The notes under the pieces: generated by a model | Seen by the model: only the letters and a program-made list of their open reading frames with translations | The model's database searches: none | Told to the model about the DNA's origin: nothing | Translations under genes and position numbers: made by a program | In this document: piece after piece, positions 6,149-32,404 of the stretch | Layout: the number at the start of each line of letters is the position of its first letter | Position numbering within the stretch: position 1 is the first letter of the stretch | DNA from: an uncultured Opitutia bacterium | GTDB lineage: Bacteria; Verrucomicrobiota; Verrucomicrobiia; Opitutales; Opitutaceae | Direction: 5' to 3' | Assembly: GCA_903859715.1 (NCBI GenBank) | Contig: CAIONS010000049.1 | Coordinates: 1-32,404 of the forward strand | DNA length: 32,404 nt

Positions 6149-6176
6149 TGTCCGGCGGACGCGACCCCGCCCTACA
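6149..6176. repeat. REP-like palindrome (GTAGGGCGGGGT family)
   Basis: On the minus strand this 28-nt element begins TGTAGGGCGGGGTCGCG and ends CCGCCGGACA, giving a partly palindromic unit (TGT-N2-GGCGG against CCGCC-N2-ACA). The same opening appears at 21948 and 32380. A related TGTGGGCGGGGT form lies inside dnaE. It fills the 69-nt spacer between the heparinase-like gene and the histidine kinase. Confidence 0.65.
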
Positions 6177-6180
6177 TTCC

Positions 6181-9100
6181 TCAACCCTTCCATTCGGCCA
6201 ACGCCGGCGCAAAGAACGGTTCACCCGGCGCAAAATCGCCGATCCACACGTCCTCCCCTGCTTTCACCGCCCCTGCCGTCAAAGGTGTCACGAGATCGAT
6301 GCCTTCGCTGTCCACGTGCTTGATCCGGCCCTCAAATCGCCCCGTGGCAGTATAGAGAGCCGCCCCGGCATAGGCATCCGCCAGAATCAAGTGCGTCGCC
6401 GTCGTGAGCCGCACCCCGCTCACCGCCGAGACCCGCGCCAAGCCCACGATCACATCATCGTGCAGCGTGAGAACCAGTTCGTCTCCTTCCAGCCGCGCGG
6501 CCGTGACGGTGTTCGCCGTCCGGCAGTCACGGCCGAAGTGCACCACGCGGCCGACCAGCGCACCCGCCTCTGCTGCCGTTGCGGGCGAAGTCAGCCGCAC
6601 GGTGACCGTCGAGCTGGACAGGTCCACGCGGCTGATTTCACCCGTCCACGTTTTCCCAATCGTCACGAGCCGGCCGTCGAGTTGCGCGCCCTCCCCGTCC
6701 GCCGTCCATGCGCGCTCCCAGGCCCCGCGCGCATCGAGCGATGCCACGGTCACCCGCGCCGAGGTCATGAGCCGGTGACCCCGGACCTCGACCTGTTTCA
6801 CCGCGCCCGGAGCACCAACGACAATGACATCCGCACCGCCATCGGGCCGGCTGGTCACCACCGCGACACCGTCCGGCAACTCGATCCGCTGCGCTCCGGT
6901 CAGGAGTCCCTCGCCGTCGTTCGGCTCCAGCACACTCACAAAGCGACTCTCCAGCGCTTCGCCCGCTCGGGCCACGTGGCGGGCGATCATGAAATGCACC
7001 TTCTGCGGAAACTTCACGGGCGAGACGCGCGCCTCCGCCACAATGATCTCCTGCCCGGCCTGCGGCAGCAGGCGCACGCGCAGCTTCGCCTTCGCATCCT
7101 TCTCGTGGGTGTAGTCGCCCACGACCTCGCCCTGCACCAGCCGGCGCACACCCCCCAGATGCTGGAAACCGGAGCCGCGATAAGTGGCGTAACCGCCCTG
7201 ATAGGTTTTCGCGCCCAGCTTGGGGTCATCATAAATCTCGCCCATCTTCACGTTCTCGCCGGCGAGCGTCCCCGTCACCTGCACGCGCCAGTCACCGCCA
7301 ACGAGGCTAAATTCCCCCGGCGGTCCGTGCAGGCTGTAGTCGTGCTGATGGCCGCCGCGCACCTCGAACACGTCGACAACATAACTCCGCCCCGCGCCGG
7401 AATCGACCATCACCTGCGTACGCCGGTATAGATCGCACTGCGGGTAGGTGCCCGCCGCATTCATCGCCATCGCGCGCGCCCAGCCGCCGTCGGCAAACAG
7501 TTCGACCGTGCCGGCGACGTTCGCCGGCTGCGCCCCGGCGTCGACCGTCACCGTGTTGTGAGAAATGGTGTTGAGCGACCACGTGTAGATGCCCGGCACC
7601 AGTTCGTTCATCGCATCGGGATAACCGAGCCCGGGCATCATCGGCTGGCCCTGCGCGAAGAGCTCGAAGCCCAGCCGGTCATAATGGGAATGCGTCACAT
7701 GCAGTCCGTAATACAACGAAAGCGCGGTCGTGTCCGCCGGGTTGTTCAGCAGGCCGAGCCCGAACCCCGACAGCAGCCGCGAGGGCTGCGGCGGCAGGTG
7801 CCGCCCGGCCGCCACCTGGGCCTGCACTTCGACCGGCGGGTACAGCAGGGCGTTGAAATCGCGGAAGCCCGTGGCGCCCGCCGCACCGAAGCCGGCCAGC
7901 ACCTGCGCATAGCGCGGGTCGTGGTATAACTGATAAGCGATCTGGTAGGCCGTCAGGTTTTCCTCGATGGCCGTGCCACCATAGACCGTGAAACTGTCGC
8001 CGATGGCGGGCGTGTATTTCCCGATCGCCATTGCCGCCATCGGCGCATCAAACAGCCGGCGCAGCCGCGGCAGCGTCGCCACGTCGCGGCCGAGTCGCGG
8101 CAGCAGGCTAGCCAGCTGGCTGAGGTTTGCGACCCAGTGGGCGTTGTACTCGGGCGACTCGTAGGGCTCACCGTCGCGCCAGATCAGGCTGTTGAGGGCG
8201 TAGCGCAGGCCCATGAACATCGTGCCACCGGGCTCGTCGATGATCGAGGCAAGGTAGCGCGCGTTGTCGCCGTGCTGGCGGACGATCGCGAGCACGAGCA
8301 GCGAACGCTGGTGCATGCCGTAGTTGCCACGCGTCTTCCACTGATAATAGGCGTCGATGCCGTCCTCCAATAGGTTGGCCTCGATGAAAGCGCGCATCGC
8401 CGGGCCATCCTGGCCGTAGAGCCGCTGCAGCGCCGTGTCGCCGTCGAGCGACGGCCAGATGGCGTCGTAAGCCTCGGCAAACCCGGCGATGAGATAACTC
8501 TCCCAGATGGCGTTGACGACCTTGCCGGTGTAGCGCTCGCCTTTCGCCGCCAGGATCTCCCCGAAGCGCGACTGGCTCTCGTAGTCCATGTTGGGATAGA
8601 CCTCGGCGATGCGGCGCAACAGCACCGCGGCCTTGTGCGCATAGCGGGCGTCGCCGGTCAGCAGGTAGGCCCGTCCGAGCGCGGCCAGGCCGGTCGCGAG
8701 GTTCGGGTGCGGCGCCGTGCCGTGCATCATCCAGAGCCAGTGGTTCCAGTGCGCGACGAACCAGTAGCGCTGACCATCGGGCGCCACCCAGCCGCGACCG
8801 TCATCCACATACGGACCGTTGAAATCGCTGCGGTCCTTGAAGCCGCTGTGGTAGAACTTGCCATAATCGTTGCTCGGGTAGGTCTCGCCGCCGATCGGGC
8901 ACTTCACCTTGAAAGGATCCTTCGGGTCGATGATCCACGGATAGGTGCTGCCCGTGACCTCAAAGATCTTCCGGCCATGAATAGGGCAGCCCGCCGGACA
9001 GCAGTCGAACGCCCGCGGCACTTCCGCACCCGTGACCACGTCGCGCAGCGCCTCGTCCGTCCAGCTTACCCAGTAGTCGGCATCCTTGATAAATCCATCC

Positions 9101-9351
9101 GCCAGCGCCAGCGCCGCCGGATACTGCGCAACATTAGCCCGCGCCTGGGCAATCTCGGCGTCGGTGAACAGCGTGCGTTTGTCCTTCAGCGGAAACTGCG
9201 GCGTGCGCGGCCGGACCGGCAGGATCTCGCCGACCTTGAGCGTGGGGTGCGGCGTGCCCGGGGCCGCCCAGTCGCTGGCCGAATGCGCCAGCAACAGCGG
9301 GCCTACGCCCAAGCCCACGAGTGCCATCAGGTATTTTCTAAATAAATTCAT
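6181..9351 (-). CDS. Exported heparinase II/III-like polysaccharide lyase
   Basis: 1056 aa, ATG start supported by an AAGGA Shine-Dalgarno 5 nt upstream. A signal peptide is evident (basic MNLFRK, hydrophobic core, cleavage near AHSAS), so it acts in the periplasm or outside. The N-terminal two thirds fit the alpha-toroid of heparinase II/III and alginate lyase families, including NYGMHQ with Y344 and H347. The following beta-sandwich carries HSHYDRLG (H554, H556) and SHNTVTVD (H598). These Tyr/His residues are candidates for the catalytic and metal sites. About 200 C-terminal residues form an extra beta-rich region. A cysteine-rich stretch near residue 117 (FDCCPAGCPIHG) and KCPIGGETYPSND are notable. 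It probably cleaves an acidic polysaccharide by beta-elimination. The substrate could be a uronate-containing glycan such as alginate or a glycosaminoglycan, and cannot be fixed from sequence alone. Confidence 0.85.
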   Translation of the reverse strand: MNLFRKYLMALVGLGVGPLLLAHSASDWAAPGTPHPTLKVGEILPVRPRTPQFPLKDKRTLFTDAEIAQARANVAQYPAALALADGFIKDADYWVSWTDEALRDVVTGAEVPRAFDCCPAGCPIHGRKIFEVTGSTYPWIIDPKDPFKVKCPIGGETYPSNDYGKFYHSGFKDRSDFNGPYVDDGRGWVAPDGQRYWFVAHWNHWLWMMHGTAPHPNLATGLAALGRAYLLTGDARYAHKAAVLLRRIAEVYPNMDYESQSRFGEILAAKGERYTGKVVNAIWESYLIAGFAEAYDAIWPSLDGDTALQRLYGQDGPAMRAFIEANLLEDGIDAYYQWKTRGNYGMHQRSLLVLAIVRQHGDNARYLASIIDEPGGTMFMGLRYALNSLIWRDGEPYESPEYNAHWVANLSQLASLLPRLGRDVATLPRLRRLFDAPMAAMAIGKYTPAIGDSFTVYGGTAIEENLTAYQIAYQLYHDPRYAQVLAGFGAAGATGFRDFNALLYPPVEVQAQVAAGRHLPPQPSRLLSGFGLGLLNNPADTTALSLYYGLHVTHSHYDRLGFELFAQGQPMMPGLGYPDAMNELVPGIYTWSLNTISHNTVTVDAGAQPANVAGTVELFADGGWARAMAMNAAGTYPQCDLYRRTQVMVDSGAGRSYVVDVFEVRGGHQHDYSLHGPPGEFSLVGGDWRVQVTGTLAGENVKMGEIYDDPKLGAKTYQGGYATYRGSGFQHLGGVRRLVQGEVVGDYTHEKDAKAKLRVRLLPQAGQEIIVAEARVSPVKFPQKVHFMIARHVARAGEALESRFVSVLEPNDGEGLLTGAQRIELPDGVAVVTSRPDGGADVIVVGAPGAVKQVEVRGHRLMTSARVTVASLDARGAWERAWTADGEGAQLDGRLVTIGKTWTGEISRVDLSSSTVTVRLTSPATAAEAGALVGRVVHFGRDCRTANTVTAARLEGDELVLTLHDDVIVGLARVSAVSGVRLTTATHLILADAYAGAALYTATGRFEGRIKHVDSEGIDLVTPLTAGAVKAGEDVWIGDFAPGEPFFAPALAEWKG

Positions 9352-13999: not shown

Positions 14000-14056
14000 A
14001 CTTCCCATTTCCCGCCTTGCGCATGCCCGCCGACTGGCTTGCTTAGGCCTCTCTCC

Positions 14057-17000
14057 GTGCCGTCCGTCGATAAAAACTTCGTCCACCTCCATGTCCACTC
14101 GGACTACAGCCTGCTGGACGGCGCCTGCCGCATCGACCGGCTGATGGACCGGGCCGTCGAGCTCGGCATGGGCGCCCTCGCCCTCACCGACCACGGCAAC
14201 CTCTACGGCGCGATCGAATTCTATAACACCGCCAAGTCCAAGGGCATCAAGCCCCTCATCGGCTGCGAACTCTACCTGGTCGAGACCTCCCGCCTGGAGA
14301 AACACGGCCGCTCGGACGACGAGGGCAAGAGCATCTTCCACCTCGGCCTGCTCGCCAAAAACCTCACCGGCTACCAGAATCTGCTCAAGCTGGTCTCCGA
14401 CGCGCACCTCAAGGGCTTCTACTACAAGCCCCGCACCGACCTCGACACCCTCGCCCAGTACGCGAACGGCCTCATCGGCTTCACCGGCTGCCTCGCCTCG
14501 CTCGTCCCGCAGCACCTGCTCCACGACCGCTACGAGGACGCCCAGAAGGCCTGCGCCCGGTTCGTCGACATCTTCGGCCGCGAGAATTATTTCGTCGAGA
14601 TCCAGGACCACGGCATCCCCGAGCAGCGCAAGATCATCCCCGGCCTGCTCAAGCTCGCCGAGGAATTCAACCTCAAGGTCATCTGCACGAATGACGTTCA
14701 CTACGTCCGCAACGCCGATGCCGGCCCGCACGACGCCATGCTCTGCATCCAGACCGGCGCGAAGATCGAGGATGAGAAGCGCATGCGCTTCGACGGCACG
14801 CAGTTTTACCTGAAGTCGCGCGACGAGATGTCGAAGCTGTTCCTCGAAGTGCCGGAGTCCGTGCTGAACACCCAGCTCGTCGCCGAGATGTGCGACCTGA
14901 CCATCCCGTTTCCGAAGGGCAGCGAGCGCTACCCGAAATATCCGCTGCCCGCCGAGCTCAAGACCGACCGCACCGGCTACCTGCTGGATCTCTGCATCGC
15001 CGGCCTGAAGCGGCGCTATGGCGTGGATTACCACGAGGCAAAGGCGGGTGAGGGCACCCGCCCCACATCAAATTCCTCCGCTGTGGGCGGGGTGCCCCCA
15101 CCCCGCATTGACCCCGCGCTCGCGCAGGTCCTCGTCGAGCGCCTCGACTTCGAGCTCAGCATCATCGGCAAGACCGGCTTCATCGACTACTTCCTCGTCG
15201 TCTGGGATTTCATCGACTGGGCGAAAAAGCAGGGCATCCCCGTCGGTCCCGGCCGCGGCTCCGGCGCCGGCTGCATCGTCGCCTACCTCCTCGGCATCAC
15301 CAACCTCGACCCGCTCCGCTTCAAGCTGCTCTTCGAGCGCTTCCTCAATCCCGAGCGCGTCTCGCCGCCGGACTTCGACATCGACTTCTGCATGCGCCGC
15401 CGCGGCGAGGTCATCGACTACGTCCGCCAGAAATACGGCAACGACTGCGTCGCCAACATCATCACCTACGGCACGCTCGGCGCGAAGATGGTCATCCGCG
15501 ACGTCTCGCGCGTCCACAACCTCCCCTACGCCGAGGCCGACCGCCTCGCCAAGATGATCCCCGACGAGCTCAACATCTCGCTCGAGGACGCCCAGAAGAA
15601 ATCCGCCGAGCTCCGCGACGAGATCGCGAAGAACCCGGTCGCGAAGAAAATCTTCGACCAGGCGCTCGTGCTCGAGGGCATGGTGCGCAACACCGGCAAG
15701 CACGCCGCCGGCATCATCATCACCGACCGGCCGCTCGAGGAATTCGTCCCGCTCACCCAGCAGGAAGGCGACGTCACCGTGCAGTATGACATGAACGCCG
15801 TGTCGAAGCTCGGCCTGCTGAAGATGGACTTCCTCGGCCTCAAGACGCTCACCGTCATCGCCGACGCCATCGACAACATCCGCCGCACCGCCGACCCGAA
15901 GTTCGACCTCGAGGCCGTCGGCTTCGAGGACCCGAAGACTTACGCCCTGCTCAACACCGGCCGCACCACCGGTGTGTTTCAGCTGGAATCCACGGGCATG
16001 CAGGCGCTCTGCCGCCAGATCAGCCTGTCCTCGATCGACGAGATCGTCGCTCTCATCGCCCTCTACCGTCCGGGCCCGATGGAGTGGATCCCCGACTACG
16101 TCCGCGGCAAAAAGGACCCGAGCACCGTCAAGTTTCCCCACAAGCTCCTCGAGGAGGTCTGCCGCGAGACCTATGGCGTGATGGTCTACCAGGAGCAGGT
16201 CATGGAGGCCGCCAAGATCGTCGCCGGCTACACGCTCGGCGGCGCCGACATGCTCCGCCGCGCCATGGGCAAGAAGGATGAAAAGGCGATGGCCGACGAA
16301 CGCGCCAAGTTCGTCGAGGGCGCGAAGCGCGTGAACGGCATCGAGGAAAAGACCGCCAACTCGATCTTCGACATCCTGAACAAGTTCGCGGGCTACGGTT
16401 TCAACAAATCCCACTCCGCTGCCTACGCCGTCCTCAGCTACCAGACCGGCTACCTCAAGGCGAACTACCCCGTGCAGTTCATGGCCGCCATGCTGTCGAG
16501 CGAACTCGGCAACTCGGAAAAGGTCTCCCACTTCGTCGCCGAGTGCGAGTCGATGGGCCTGCACGTGCTCGGCCCGGATGTGAACGAGAGCCGTGAGAAC
16601 TTCACTCCGGTCGGCGACAAAATCCGCTTCGGCCTCGCCGGCATCAAGGGCGTCGGCGAGCAAGCCGCGGTGAAGATCATCGAGGAGCGGGATAAGAACG
16701 GCCCCTTCCACGACTTCGCGGACTTCATCTCCCGCGTCGACGCCCGCGCGCTCAACAAGCGCGTGCTCGAGCACCTCGTGAAGACCGGCGCCTTCGACTT
16801 CAGCGGCGCCCCGCGCAAGCCGCTCTTCGACGGCATCGATGCCGCCATGGCCACCGTCGCCTCCACCGCCCGCGACAAGGCCGCCGGTCAGAACAACTTT
16901 CTCGACATGCTCGCCGAGGACGCCCCGGCCAAGGTTGTGGGCGGGGTGCCTTCACCCCGCGTGGTCACCCAGCACGACACCGCCGGCGATTTCAGCTCGG

Positions 17001-17683
17001 CCGAGCGCCTGCAGTTCGAGAAGGAGCTCCTCGGCTTCTACGTGTCCGGCCACCCGATGAACGTCTACGCCGGCCTCGCCGAGGCCATCAACACGTTCAC
17101 CGAGGACGAACTCATGCGGCTCGGCGACCGCACCGAGTTCCGGCTCTGCGGCATCGCCTCGAACATCGCCAAGAAACTTTCGAAAAAGGACAACCGCCCG
17201 TGGGCCGCGTTCACGCTCTCCAGCAAACGCGCCGCGCTTCAGCTCAACATGTTTGCCGACGCCTACGCCGCCTACGCGCAGAACCTGCTGACCGATACGC
17301 CCGTGCTCGTGCAGGGCAACATCATCGGCGGCAACGACGGCACGCGCATCAACATCAAGGAGTGCTACCCGCTCGATAATTTCGCCACCGGCATCGTCCG
17401 CAAGGTCACTTGGCTCCTCCATCCTTCCCACGCCGAGCTGCCCGGCTTCTTCCGCCTGTTGCGCGACACGATCAACGGGCAGTCGGGCGACACGCGCATG
17501 GAGTTCGCGTTCGTCTTCCCGGACCGCGCCGCGCCCGTCGCCGAAGCCAGCGGGGCCCTCGGCTGGAAACTCACTGCCGCCGTCTTCCAGGAACTTCGCG
17601 CCCACCCCGCCGTCGCCGGTGTCCAGCTTGAGACCAAGCGCCTCGAGCTAAAGCAGGACCGCCGCTGGTCAAAGCGCGGCTAA
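14057..17683 (+). CDS. dnaE: DNA polymerase III alpha subunit with repeat-derived inserts
   Basis: 1208 aa from a GTG at 14057; a TTG at 14039 would add six residues. The replicative polymerase opens with a PHP domain (HLHVHSDYSLLDG, residues 10-22). The palm follows with GPGRGSGAGC, catalytic D439 and D441 in SPPDFDIDF, and D591 in KMDFLGLKTL. The fingers/thumb region includes YRPGPMEWIPDYV and YQEQVM, then the HhH region, the LGFYVSGHP segment and an OB-fold. Two stretches look foreign. Residues 330-350, in the linker before RLDFELSIIGKTGF, and residues 960-968, before LGFYVSGHP, are encoded by copies of a REP-like palindrome read in the same frame (VGGVPPPR and VGGVPSPR). The rest of the gene is intact, so the inserts appear tolerated. 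The repeat at 17695 follows 11 nt after the stop codon. Confidence 0.97.
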   Translation: MPSVDKNFVHLHVHSDYSLLDGACRIDRLMDRAVELGMGALALTDHGNLYGAIEFYNTAKSKGIKPLIGCELYLVETSRLEKHGRSDDEGKSIFHLGLLAKNLTGYQNLLKLVSDAHLKGFYYKPRTDLDTLAQYANGLIGFTGCLASLVPQHLLHDRYEDAQKACARFVDIFGRENYFVEIQDHGIPEQRKIIPGLLKLAEEFNLKVICTNDVHYVRNADAGPHDAMLCIQTGAKIEDEKRMRFDGTQFYLKSRDEMSKLFLEVPESVLNTQLVAEMCDLTIPFPKGSERYPKYPLPAELKTDRTGYLLDLCIAGLKRRYGVDYHEAKAGEGTRPTSNSSAVGGVPPPRIDPALAQVLVERLDFELSIIGKTGFIDYFLVVWDFIDWAKKQGIPVGPGRGSGAGCIVAYLLGITNLDPLRFKLLFERFLNPERVSPPDFDIDFCMRRRGEVIDYVRQKYGNDCVANIITYGTLGAKMVIRDVSRVHNLPYAEADRLAKMIPDELNISLEDAQKKSAELRDEIAKNPVAKKIFDQALVLEGMVRNTGKHAAGIIITDRPLEEFVPLTQQEGDVTVQYDMNAVSKLGLLKMDFLGLKTLTVIADAIDNIRRTADPKFDLEAVGFEDPKTYALLNTGRTTGVFQLESTGMQALCRQISLSSIDEIVALIALYRPGPMEWIPDYVRGKKDPSTVKFPHKLLEEVCRETYGVMVYQEQVMEAAKIVAGYTLGGADMLRRAMGKKDEKAMADERAKFVEGAKRVNGIEEKTANSIFDILNKFAGYGFNKSHSAAYAVLSYQTGYLKANYPVQFMAAMLSSELGNSEKVSHFVAECESMGLHVLGPDVNESRENFTPVGDKIRFGLAGIKGVGEQAAVKIIEERDKNGPFHDFADFISRVDARALNKRVLEHLVKTGAFDFSGAPRKPLFDGIDAAMATVASTARDKAAGQNNFLDMLAEDAPAKVVGGVPSPRVVTQHDTAGDFSSAERLQFEKELLGFYVSGHPMNVYAGLAEAINTFTEDELMRLGDRTEFRLCGIASNIAKKLSKKDNRPWAAFTLSSKRAALQLNMFADAYAAYAQNLLTDTPVLVQGNIIGGNDGTRINIKECYPLDNFATGIVRKVTWLLHPSHAELPGFFRLLRDTINGQSGDTRMEFAFVFPDRAAPVAEASGALGWKLTAAVFQELRAHPAVAGVQLETKRLELKQDRRWSKRG
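15043..15106. repeat. REPIN-like inverted doublet inside dnaE
   Basis: Two 25-nt units in opposite orientation (15043-15067 and 15082-15106) flank a 14-nt spacer. They are complementary with five mismatches. Each unit is also a hairpin: GCGGGTG-AGGG-CACCCGC on the left and GCGGGGTG-CCCC-CACCCCGC on the right. Paired inverted REP copies are the hallmark of REPINs. The whole element lies in frame in dnaE and encodes about residues 330-350. Confidence 0.85.
16936..16960. repeat. Single REP-like palindrome inside dnaE
   Basis: A 25-nt unit starting TGTGGGCGGGGTGCC and ending TTCACCCCGC differs from the copy at 15082-15106 at two positions. Its core is GCGGGGTG-CCTT-CACCCCGC, a perfect 8-bp stem in which both differences fall in the loop. 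It is read in the same frame as the first copy and encodes VGGVPSPR at residues 961-968 of DnaE. Confidence 0.85.
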
Positions 17684-21947: not shown

Positions 21948-21974
21948 GTAGGGCGGGTCTCTGACCTGCCCTAC
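21948..21974. repeat. REP-like palindrome (GTAGGGCGGGTC family)
   Basis: GTAGGGCGGGTC at 21948-21959 pairs with 21963-21974 with one mismatch over 12 bp around a TCT loop. It belongs with the units at 6149-6176, 32380-32404 and, in a TGTGGGCGGGGT variant, inside dnaE. It lies in the spacer between the AraC gene and the hemX-like gene. Confidence 0.7.
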
Positions 21975-21983
21975 CCCAAACAC

Positions 21984-22138
21984 CGTCATCCTGAGCGAAG
22001 CCGAAGGATCCCTGTGACTATTTCCAGTCAGCCCGCTTGCAGCCACAGACACTCCTACCGCGCCGCTCAAGTGTCCGCATCAAACCCGGCATCATCGGAC
22101 AAGATCACAGCGATCCTTCGGCCCCGCTCAGGATGACG
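21984..22138. repeat. Diverged copy of the CCTGAGCGAAG inverted repeat
   Basis: Arms 21984-22017 and 22105-22138 are complementary over 34 bp with three mismatches, around an 87-nt spacer. The sequence (CGTCATCCTGAGCGAAG...) is clearly related to the perfect copy at 1169-1250. It fills most of the 329-nt gap between the AraC and hemX-like genes. Confidence 0.8.
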
Positions 22139-32379: not shown

Positions 32380-32404
32380 TGTAGGGCGGGGTCGCTGACC
32401 CCGC
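32380..32404. repeat. REP-like palindrome at the window edge
   Basis: A 25-nt unit starts TGTAGGGCGGGGTC and ends GACCCCGC, giving a perfect 8-bp stem (GCGGGGTC/GACCCCGC) with a GCT loop. Its length and layout match the TGTGGGCGGGGT units in dnaE. The window ends exactly here, so a second arm beyond the edge cannot be judged. Confidence 0.7.

Follow-up and report, generated by a model that had tools for sequence, protein, structure and literature searches.

The repeat units found in the window (the whole stretch of DNA analysed, 32,404 nucleotides, which constitutes an entire contig, C49, of a 3.18-Mb genome that is 97.8% complete) are very probably structured, dispersed and mobile elements, and one of their subfamilies, here called B, is repeatedly read in frame inside protein genes, among them dnaE. 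We consider it likely, and hold this view with good confidence, that the units are REPs of the GTAG superfamily which were copied as REPINs by RAYT enzymes, and that B copies subsequently entered protein linkers as selected in-frame insertions. The five best relatives of the dnaE gene that were named are MAGs labelled Opitutus, Opitutaceae or Opitutae, with 69-82% identity over the best segment, which places the host in Opitutaceae or Opitutae (Verrucomicrobiota).

Repeat units in the window

A sequence-only reading of this DNA had placed the units at 6149-6176, 21948-21974 and 32380-32404, together with those in dnaE, in one REP-like family defined by a common opening and a short-loop stem. 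The common opening is confirmed at all three units, with GTAGGGCGGG exact at 6166-6175 (-), 21948-21957 (+) and 32381-32390 (+); allowing one mismatch gives 8 sites in the window, where 2.69 would be expected, and 1 of 100 shuffles yields as many. The second word, TGTGGGCGGGGT, is exact at 15082 and 16936, both in dnaE, and with up to two mismatches it stays at chance level in the window (8 sites against 4.74 expected; 12 of 100 shuffles reach 8). An additional third unit lies in dnaE on the minus strand, and the features are as follows.

6151..6175, minus strand: A1 REP unit, intergenic, with decayed 3' arm (4/9 stem pairs)
14039..17683, plus strand: dnaE, DNA polymerase III alpha, with PHP, DNA_pol3_alpha, finger and HHH_6; frame open across all three units
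15043..15066, minus strand: B REP unit in dnaE, GTGG tag, left half of a tail-to-tail pair; peptide AGEGTRPT
15083..15106, plus strand: B REP unit in dnaE, GTGG tag, right half of the tail-to-tail pair; peptide VGGVPPPR
16937..16960, plus strand: B REP unit in dnaE, GTGG tag, single; peptide VGGVPSPR; common to relative G005
21948..21974, plus strand: A2 REP unit, GTAG-tagged; stem of 8 bp, one of them G-T; loop TCT
32381..32404, plus strand: A1 REP unit, GTAG tag and GGCGGGGTC stem, GCT loop; truncated where the contig ends

The short-loop stems that had been proposed hold for the dnaE units (8/8 pairs in each of the three) and for the 21948 unit, whose palindrome reaches 21974 (8/8 including the G-T pair), and fail for the unit at 6151-6175, which lacks the 3' arm of the family, forms a different and shorter hairpin, and stands 5 bp past the stop codon of the ORF at 6181-9351(-). 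The 32381 unit is incomplete because the contig itself stops at 32404, mid-repeat. Folded in isolation, the 21948 unit gave a z of -5.5, the dnaE site-1 pair -4.2 and the 32381 unit -3.1; the single dnaE site-2 unit reached only -1.45, and 20 of 200 shuffles folded equally well. A scan of the window with 4227 Rfam families returned 0 matches at the gathering threshold. Adjoining the A2 unit, a different intergenic repeat was observed as two inverted copies (GTCATCCTGAGCGAAGCCGAAGGATC and GATCCTTCGGCCCCGCTCAGGATGAC) at 21985-22010 and 22112-22137, about 100 bp apart.

Subfamilies and genome census

Across the fetched loci the repeats resolve into separate subfamilies. A1 consists of GTAG followed by GGCGGGGTC-GCT-GACCCCGCC, with a 9-bp stem and a 3-nt loop; A2 of GTAG and GGCGGGTC-TYT-GACCCGCC, with an 8-bp stem and a 3-nt loop, also found in a GGCAGGTC/GACCTGCC version; A3 of GTAG and GGCGGGACC-GCT-GGGCCCGCC, which contains a stem mismatch; and B mostly of GTGG with GCGGGGTG or GGCGGGTG, the loop CCCT (CCYY in the three window units) and the matching right arm, giving an 8-bp stem and a 4-nt loop. 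Three of these are represented in the window, namely A1 (32381 and the decayed 6151-6175 unit), A2 (21948) and B (all dnaE units). The assignment of all six window units to a single family with intergenic and coding members was therefore dropped, since A1, A2 and A3 are distinct from B and none of the A1 units detected lies in a gene; the repeats as such are real.

The genome-wide scan with a covariance model that had been suggested, built here from the six window units, gave at least 141 matches with paired changes at E<=1 in the 3.18 Mb of the genome itself, a lower bound because 150 of 1424 candidates were scored, with rough E-values. These comprise 90 A1 units, 49 B units and 2 in neither; of the six source units, those at 6151-6175 and 21948 are missing and the other four are included. 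Such numbers, together with the paired changes, argue for structured, dispersed and very probably mobile repeats. The tag was GTAG in 85 of the 90 A1 units, and GTGG in 39, GTAG in 7 and another in 3 of the 49 B units, proportions that are not independent because units were picked partly by tag. A flank preference also exists, a T standing directly before the tag in 89/90 A1 and 47/49 B units. Matches within 200 bp of contig ends numbered 17 of 141 against about 1.3 expected, in a count for which only the start of two contigs was checkable. The repeats thus display the features of the GTAG superfamily: a GTAG tag or a variant of it, a stem within 6-13 bp, which in many families of the superfamily carries a loop of 2-3 nt, and many dispersed copies. 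Among 387 genomes drawn from the phylum, the full B1 unit was detected in five, all in the family of the window genome.

Stem covariation and the chance control

The stem was fully paired in 48/66 A1 (with A3), 34/41 A2 and 36/40 B units, these having been chosen by their 5' half only, with units 10 nt or less from a locus end (hence the one at 32381) excluded. When right halves were re-dealt among units, the observed pairing was reached in 0/2000 shuffles for A1 (with A3), 1/2000 for A2 and 0/2000 for B. At pair 6-23, the 48 B units that are 24 nt long show CG 30 times, GC 11 times, AT 4 times and TA once, with T-G and A-C cells besides, and pair 7-22 is GC in 30 and CG in 17, with one C-C; in the 41 A2 units, pair 8-20 is GC in 27 and AT in 8. 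These counts are not independent events, as copies descend from one another, and the four Watson-Crick types at one B pair nevertheless show that pairing in the stem is preserved even as the letters vary. A3 runs against such stem-keeping, its nine copies retaining the stem mismatch. Compensatory change, which the sequence-only reading had proposed, is thus found inside B and inside A2, although the example it offered sets an A1 stem against a B stem. Its further claim that the folded form is what matters is supported for the life cycle of the element itself, RAYT enzymes being described as readers of REP hairpins (PMC8266576), but finds no such support inside dnaE, where the reading frame must be what selection keeps.

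Coincidental GC-rich palindromes in a GC-rich genome can hardly account for these repeats. The background of bare short words is large, as seen from GTRGGGCGGG (197 matches against 74 in the control) and from the 12-mer TGTGGGCGGGGT, which with two mismatches is no commoner in the window than chance. The longer cores, however, refute this explanation, with 84 matches of the A1 core against 2 in the reversed control and 21 of the B core against 1, and both covariation and dimers oppose it.

Paired units, spacers and nested repeats

Within 150 bp of one another, B units form 14 head-to-head pairs and one tail-to-tail pair, the latter at dnaE site 1. For A1, 22 head-to-head rows were obtained, of which 21 are real since one row is a single palindrome matched on both strands, and four mixed rows were found in addition. 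The 21 A1/A1 and 14 B/B head-to-head pairs are inverted doublets of the REPIN kind. Their spacer in B measures 9 nt in 7 of 14 pairs and ranges from 5 to 29; in the three in-gene pairs it is 5, 8 and 11, in all cases 2 modulo 3, compared with 3/11 of the other pairs, so that a tie between spacer length and coding is suggestive only.

In several A1 pairs the spacer is occupied by a further REP, GTAGGGCGAATCCTCCGGATGAGCCG. At eight loci (L014, L017, L020, L016, L149, L150, L162 and L181) a nested REP of GTAGGGCGAATCC type comes after the A1 unit, and at L017 and L020 this REP lies between the halves of an A1 head-to-head pair, forming a composite of about 100 bp.

Coding copies of subfamily B

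An open coding-like frame was assigned to 11/49 B units and 0/90 A1 units (Fisher p ~5e-6) by a home-made codon-usage score trained on seven window genes, which is not a gene finder. Counted by site, the contrast is 7/34 for B and 0/68 for A1 (p 3e-4), and it becomes 7/29 against 0/60 once the flank-poor sites are removed, since units at contig ends with less than 120 nt of flank (5/34 B and 8/68 A1 sites) cannot score. An earlier and partly overlapping set, retrieved by regular expression and judged at a codon-score cut of 0.15 instead of the 0.1 applied to the model census, gave 7/36 coding for B and 0/100 for A1, A2 and A3.

The seven B coding sites lie in DnaE (two), FtsY, a SpoU/MRM3-type methylase, a DUF255 protein, a CobW protein and a second methylase. 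Proteins were named by Pfam, apart from the methylase at C9:42979 and the epimerase-like protein at C48:33223, which were named from the translated sequence. The last of these sites and two weaker cases are listed here.

C9:42979: second SpoU-type methylase with a B unit
near the end of a DUF58 protein: B unit, weaker case, below the codon-score cut
C48:33223: B unit in an epimerase-like protein, weaker case, below the codon-score cut

At the seven sites a single phase is used by 6/6 forward-read and 5/5 reverse-read units, which would give the forward peptide VG[GR]VP[SP]P (for example VGGVPSPR) and the reverse peptide [RTA]GEGT[PR]PT (for example RGEGTPPT). Because the DUF58 and epimerase-like cases owe their acceptance to peptide and frame, they are excluded from this count of 11/11; with them included, one phase is found in 14/14 in-gene units. 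The peptides in DnaE and FtsY are predicted by translation. As to position, the insert separates the two Pfam domains of FtsY and likewise those of CobW; elsewhere it falls just ahead of the aligned part of the polymerase core at DnaE site 1 (where the profile match begins at position 16), behind HHH_6 at DnaE site 2, and within the range of the substrate-binding model in the SpoU protein.

Stop codons alone were considered as the reason why only B is coding. Of the three forward phases, one is open in A1, one in A2, two in A3 and three in B, and of the three reverse phases, three are open in A1, A2 and A3 and two in B. We estimate the resulting advantage of B at about two-fold per head-to-head pair and less per single unit, which we judged too small for 7/34 against 0/68 sites, and this account was rejected.

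Filled and empty sites in relatives

The block at DnaE site 1 is 57 nt longer in the window (123 nt) than in G005 (66 nt), whose DnaE is 95% identical. Among 23 aligned relatives, 17 are short at this site, 5 are longer with unrelated sequence, and one, G034, has a B unit of its own, which is GTAG-tagged and reads VGGVPPPR; GTGG is thus not required for a coding copy. This alignment covers 23 of the 29 relatives' loci, leaving out G016, G018, G021, G024, G030 and G052, and longer, unrelated linkers occur at site 1 in G016, G021 and G030. At DnaE site 2 the unit is common to the window and G005, and a B-like unit is present in the same linker of G012. There is no clear length gain over the aligned relatives at this site and the net gain is small, so the insertion at site 2, read from the sequence alone, is less certain.

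The FtsY insert is common to G005 only among 17 aligned relatives, the other 16 being without it, and several of the aligned linkers are long as well without a B unit. The DUF255 insert is absent in 18/18 aligned relatives, including G005 at 91% identity. More distant loci and a second G010 paralogue were excluded from these two alignments. In ftsY of G011 (L246), a different palindromic in-frame insert, PTPSSAQRGEGAAAPS, was observed in the same linker, which suggests that the FtsY linker was hit by more than one REP type.

The distribution of both subfamilies is patchy within one genus. Copies of the A1 core number 84 in G000, 64 in G010, 20 in G009 and 0 in both G001 and G008, and copies of the B core number 21 in G000, 22 in G005, 23 in G008 and 0 in G010.

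Around dnaE residue ~859 (window ~16613), in-frame inserts of 25-46 residues were seen in 13/23 relatives, compared with 3 residues in the window, whose genome is without such an insert. These inserts (L207, L223-L233 and L235) belong to neither A1 nor B, and some contain inverted or direct DNA repeats, for example runs of CTCTCAGCTCTCAGCT.

Alternative readings

The strong hairpins of most window units, and the A1 unit at 6151-6175 lying directly behind a stop codon, would suit elements that act mainly at the RNA level, as terminators or mRNA stabilisers conserved for function and not as mobile DNA. We regard this as unlikely, since A1 cores fall from 84 to 0 inside one genus, inserts are present or absent between orthologues that are 91-95% identical, head-to-head pairs with a 9-nt spacer in 7/14 B cases fit a copied unit, and B copies reside within coding sequence. 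It also appears unlikely that the coding copies were domesticated, that is, kept for the use of their peptide or mRNA hairpin, for example as a pause or as a linker with a set length, and not merely tolerated. The single frame in 11/11 in-gene units (14/14 with the weaker cases), the separate G034 unit in the same dnaE linker and the B-like G012 unit in the site-2 linker, and the dnaE site-2 and FtsY copies common to G000 and G005 count in favour of domestication. Most aligned relatives, however, manage without the inserts, and the unrelated in-frame DnaE inserts at ~859 in 13/23 relatives fit a tolerance of anything flexible. Selection presumably stands behind the single frame, and the peptide itself is probably without function.

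A further and tentative reading, to which we assign a minor yet appreciable chance, regards B as a REP lineage made compatible with translation and adapted to coding space, its tag and its spacer modulo 3 having been shaped by selection through host genes. If true, the mostly GTGG tag and the CCCT loop would leave one phase per strand that encodes a harmless linker peptide (VGGVPSPR/RGEGTPPT), and B would be a mobile element able to spread into the linkers of proteins, DnaE and FtsY among them.

Relation to known repeat families

Di Nocera et al. (2013; PMC3733652) described GTAG REPs in Opitutus terrae with GTGG-tagged members and many intragenic copies, in the families GTAG-17, -19 and -20, the GTGG tag being present in the majority of GTAG-20. 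Intragenic GTAG REPs in Opitutus are therefore already in print, and the window repeats belong to a known kind. They resemble those of O. terrae in a host related by dnaE, the GTAG/GTGG tag, short stems and both HH and TT dimers, and B resembles GTAG-20 in a GTGG majority (39/49 units here), although A1, A2 and B were compared with GTAG-17, -19 and -20 by description and not by consensus sequences (PMC3733652). In the main-text sections of that report drawn on here, Opitutus copies inside DnaE, FtsY, SpoU, DUF255 or CobW were not seen, and dnaE appears there for Rickettsia conorii and, as dnaE2 genes, for unnamed species. The subfamily contrast, the single frame and the filled and empty DnaE, FtsY and DUF255 sites were likewise not seen in those sections, and its supplementary lists may hold part of them.

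Like the REPINs of Bertels and Rainey (2011; PMC3116915), the repeats are numerous and occur as inverted REP doublets, which are taken to be what is copied, with singlets regarded as remnants. They differ in that REPINs are placed in extragenic space in the portions of that study drawn on here, whereas B also occupies coding sequence. The REP-Sm of S. maltophilia, belonging to TnpA-REP group 3 in PMC8266576, combines GTAG with an 8-bp perfect stem and a 3-nt loop in 23 nt, as does A2; A1 shares the GCT loop with REP-Sm and differs by its 9-bp stem, and B, known here as a sequence, differs by its 4-nt loop and GTGG tag. Rickettsia palindromic elements are similar in being palindromic repeats that lie within many protein-coding genes, the one for R. 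conorii DnaE among them (PMC3733652). RPE-4 and RPE-6, as reported in the same source, are CGTC-tagged and without a dedicated transposase, unlike the GTAG/GTGG-tagged repeats here, and the CGTC tag of RPE/CGTC REPs does not occur among our units. Taken as a natural experiment within one genus, the sister subfamilies offer one REP that is unseen in genes and another that is repeatedly in frame in proteins, and filled versus empty orthologue sites make the coding entry of REPs testable, including whether the change from GTAG to GTGG matters.

Candidate RAYT enzymes and proposed mechanism

Many of these GTAG-superfamily REPs stand as head-to-head pairs (REPINs). According to the mechanism we favour, a RAYT/TnpA-REP enzyme would work in trans on the hairpin in its single-stranded form and would copy the pair, or move it, to a position preceded by a T. 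Paired stem changes would keep the hairpin readable and could thereby lead to new subfamilies. B could be inserted in frame because its tag, mostly GTGG, is without the TAG stop of GTAG and its body is stop-poor, and copies in linker or loop segments of proteins would survive selection as a Gly/Pro/Ser/Thr-rich peptide, VG[GR]VPSP and [RTA]GEGT[PR]PT. The tag, the mostly perfect stem, the 3-4-nt loop and the inverted pairs are those of TnpA-REP/RAYT substrates. The tail-to-tail pair at dnaE site 1, unlike the other 14 B pairs, speaks against this scheme.

Published assays in PMC8266576 bear on the enzymatic step. TnpA-REP of Stenotrophomonas cuts its REP-Sm, a 23-nt element whose 8-bp stem is perfect and whose loop is GCT, at CT, and cutting is sensitive to stem mismatches. 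In the S. maltophilia enzyme the tested changes of the third and fourth GTAG bases abolish cutting, and the E. coli enzyme tolerates no tag change, a strictness that speaks against GTGG-tagged B as an easy substrate. The Marinomonas TnpA-REP cuts a GTGG-tagged REP, less efficiently (all PMC8266576).

Neither Y1_Tnp gene of the genome itself is tied to A1 or B, and a RAYT is the presumed motor of these subfamilies. The 22 Y1_Tnp loci inspected (2 in the genome itself and 20 in relatives, the latter fetched out of 28 matches in seven relatives) yielded no RAYT with A1 or B in its flanks, so that the cognate RAYT expected of a REPIN was found for neither subfamily in these loci. In a flank scan run without a chance-hairpin control, 7/20 of the relatives' loci have a GT[AG]G hairpin on either side, among them G034:C104, which is GTGG-tagged, and one in G014 with the A1 loop and inner stem, GTAGCCGGGGTCGCTGACCCCGG. 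G008, with 23 B cores, gave zero Y1_Tnp matches at E<=0.001.

The two Y1_Tnp proteins of the genome itself score 58 and 46 bits against an NCBIfam RAYT cut-off of 80. One is a 335-aa protein at C47:20336-21343 (L186), which was rejected as a motor of A1 and B as the scan showed no GTAG REP in its flanks; a REP of GTAGGGCGAATCC type is likewise absent beside it, and the GGGGTCAG beside its start fits the GGGGWSAS motif of the 'TIRYT' genes reported in PMC3733652. The other, at C48:1-700 (L187), is a decayed RAYT whose frame breaks off at an internal stop ahead of the C-terminal motif, and it sits between two copies of the GTAGGGCGAATCCTCCGGATGAGCC REP, which is of GTAGGGCGAATCC type.
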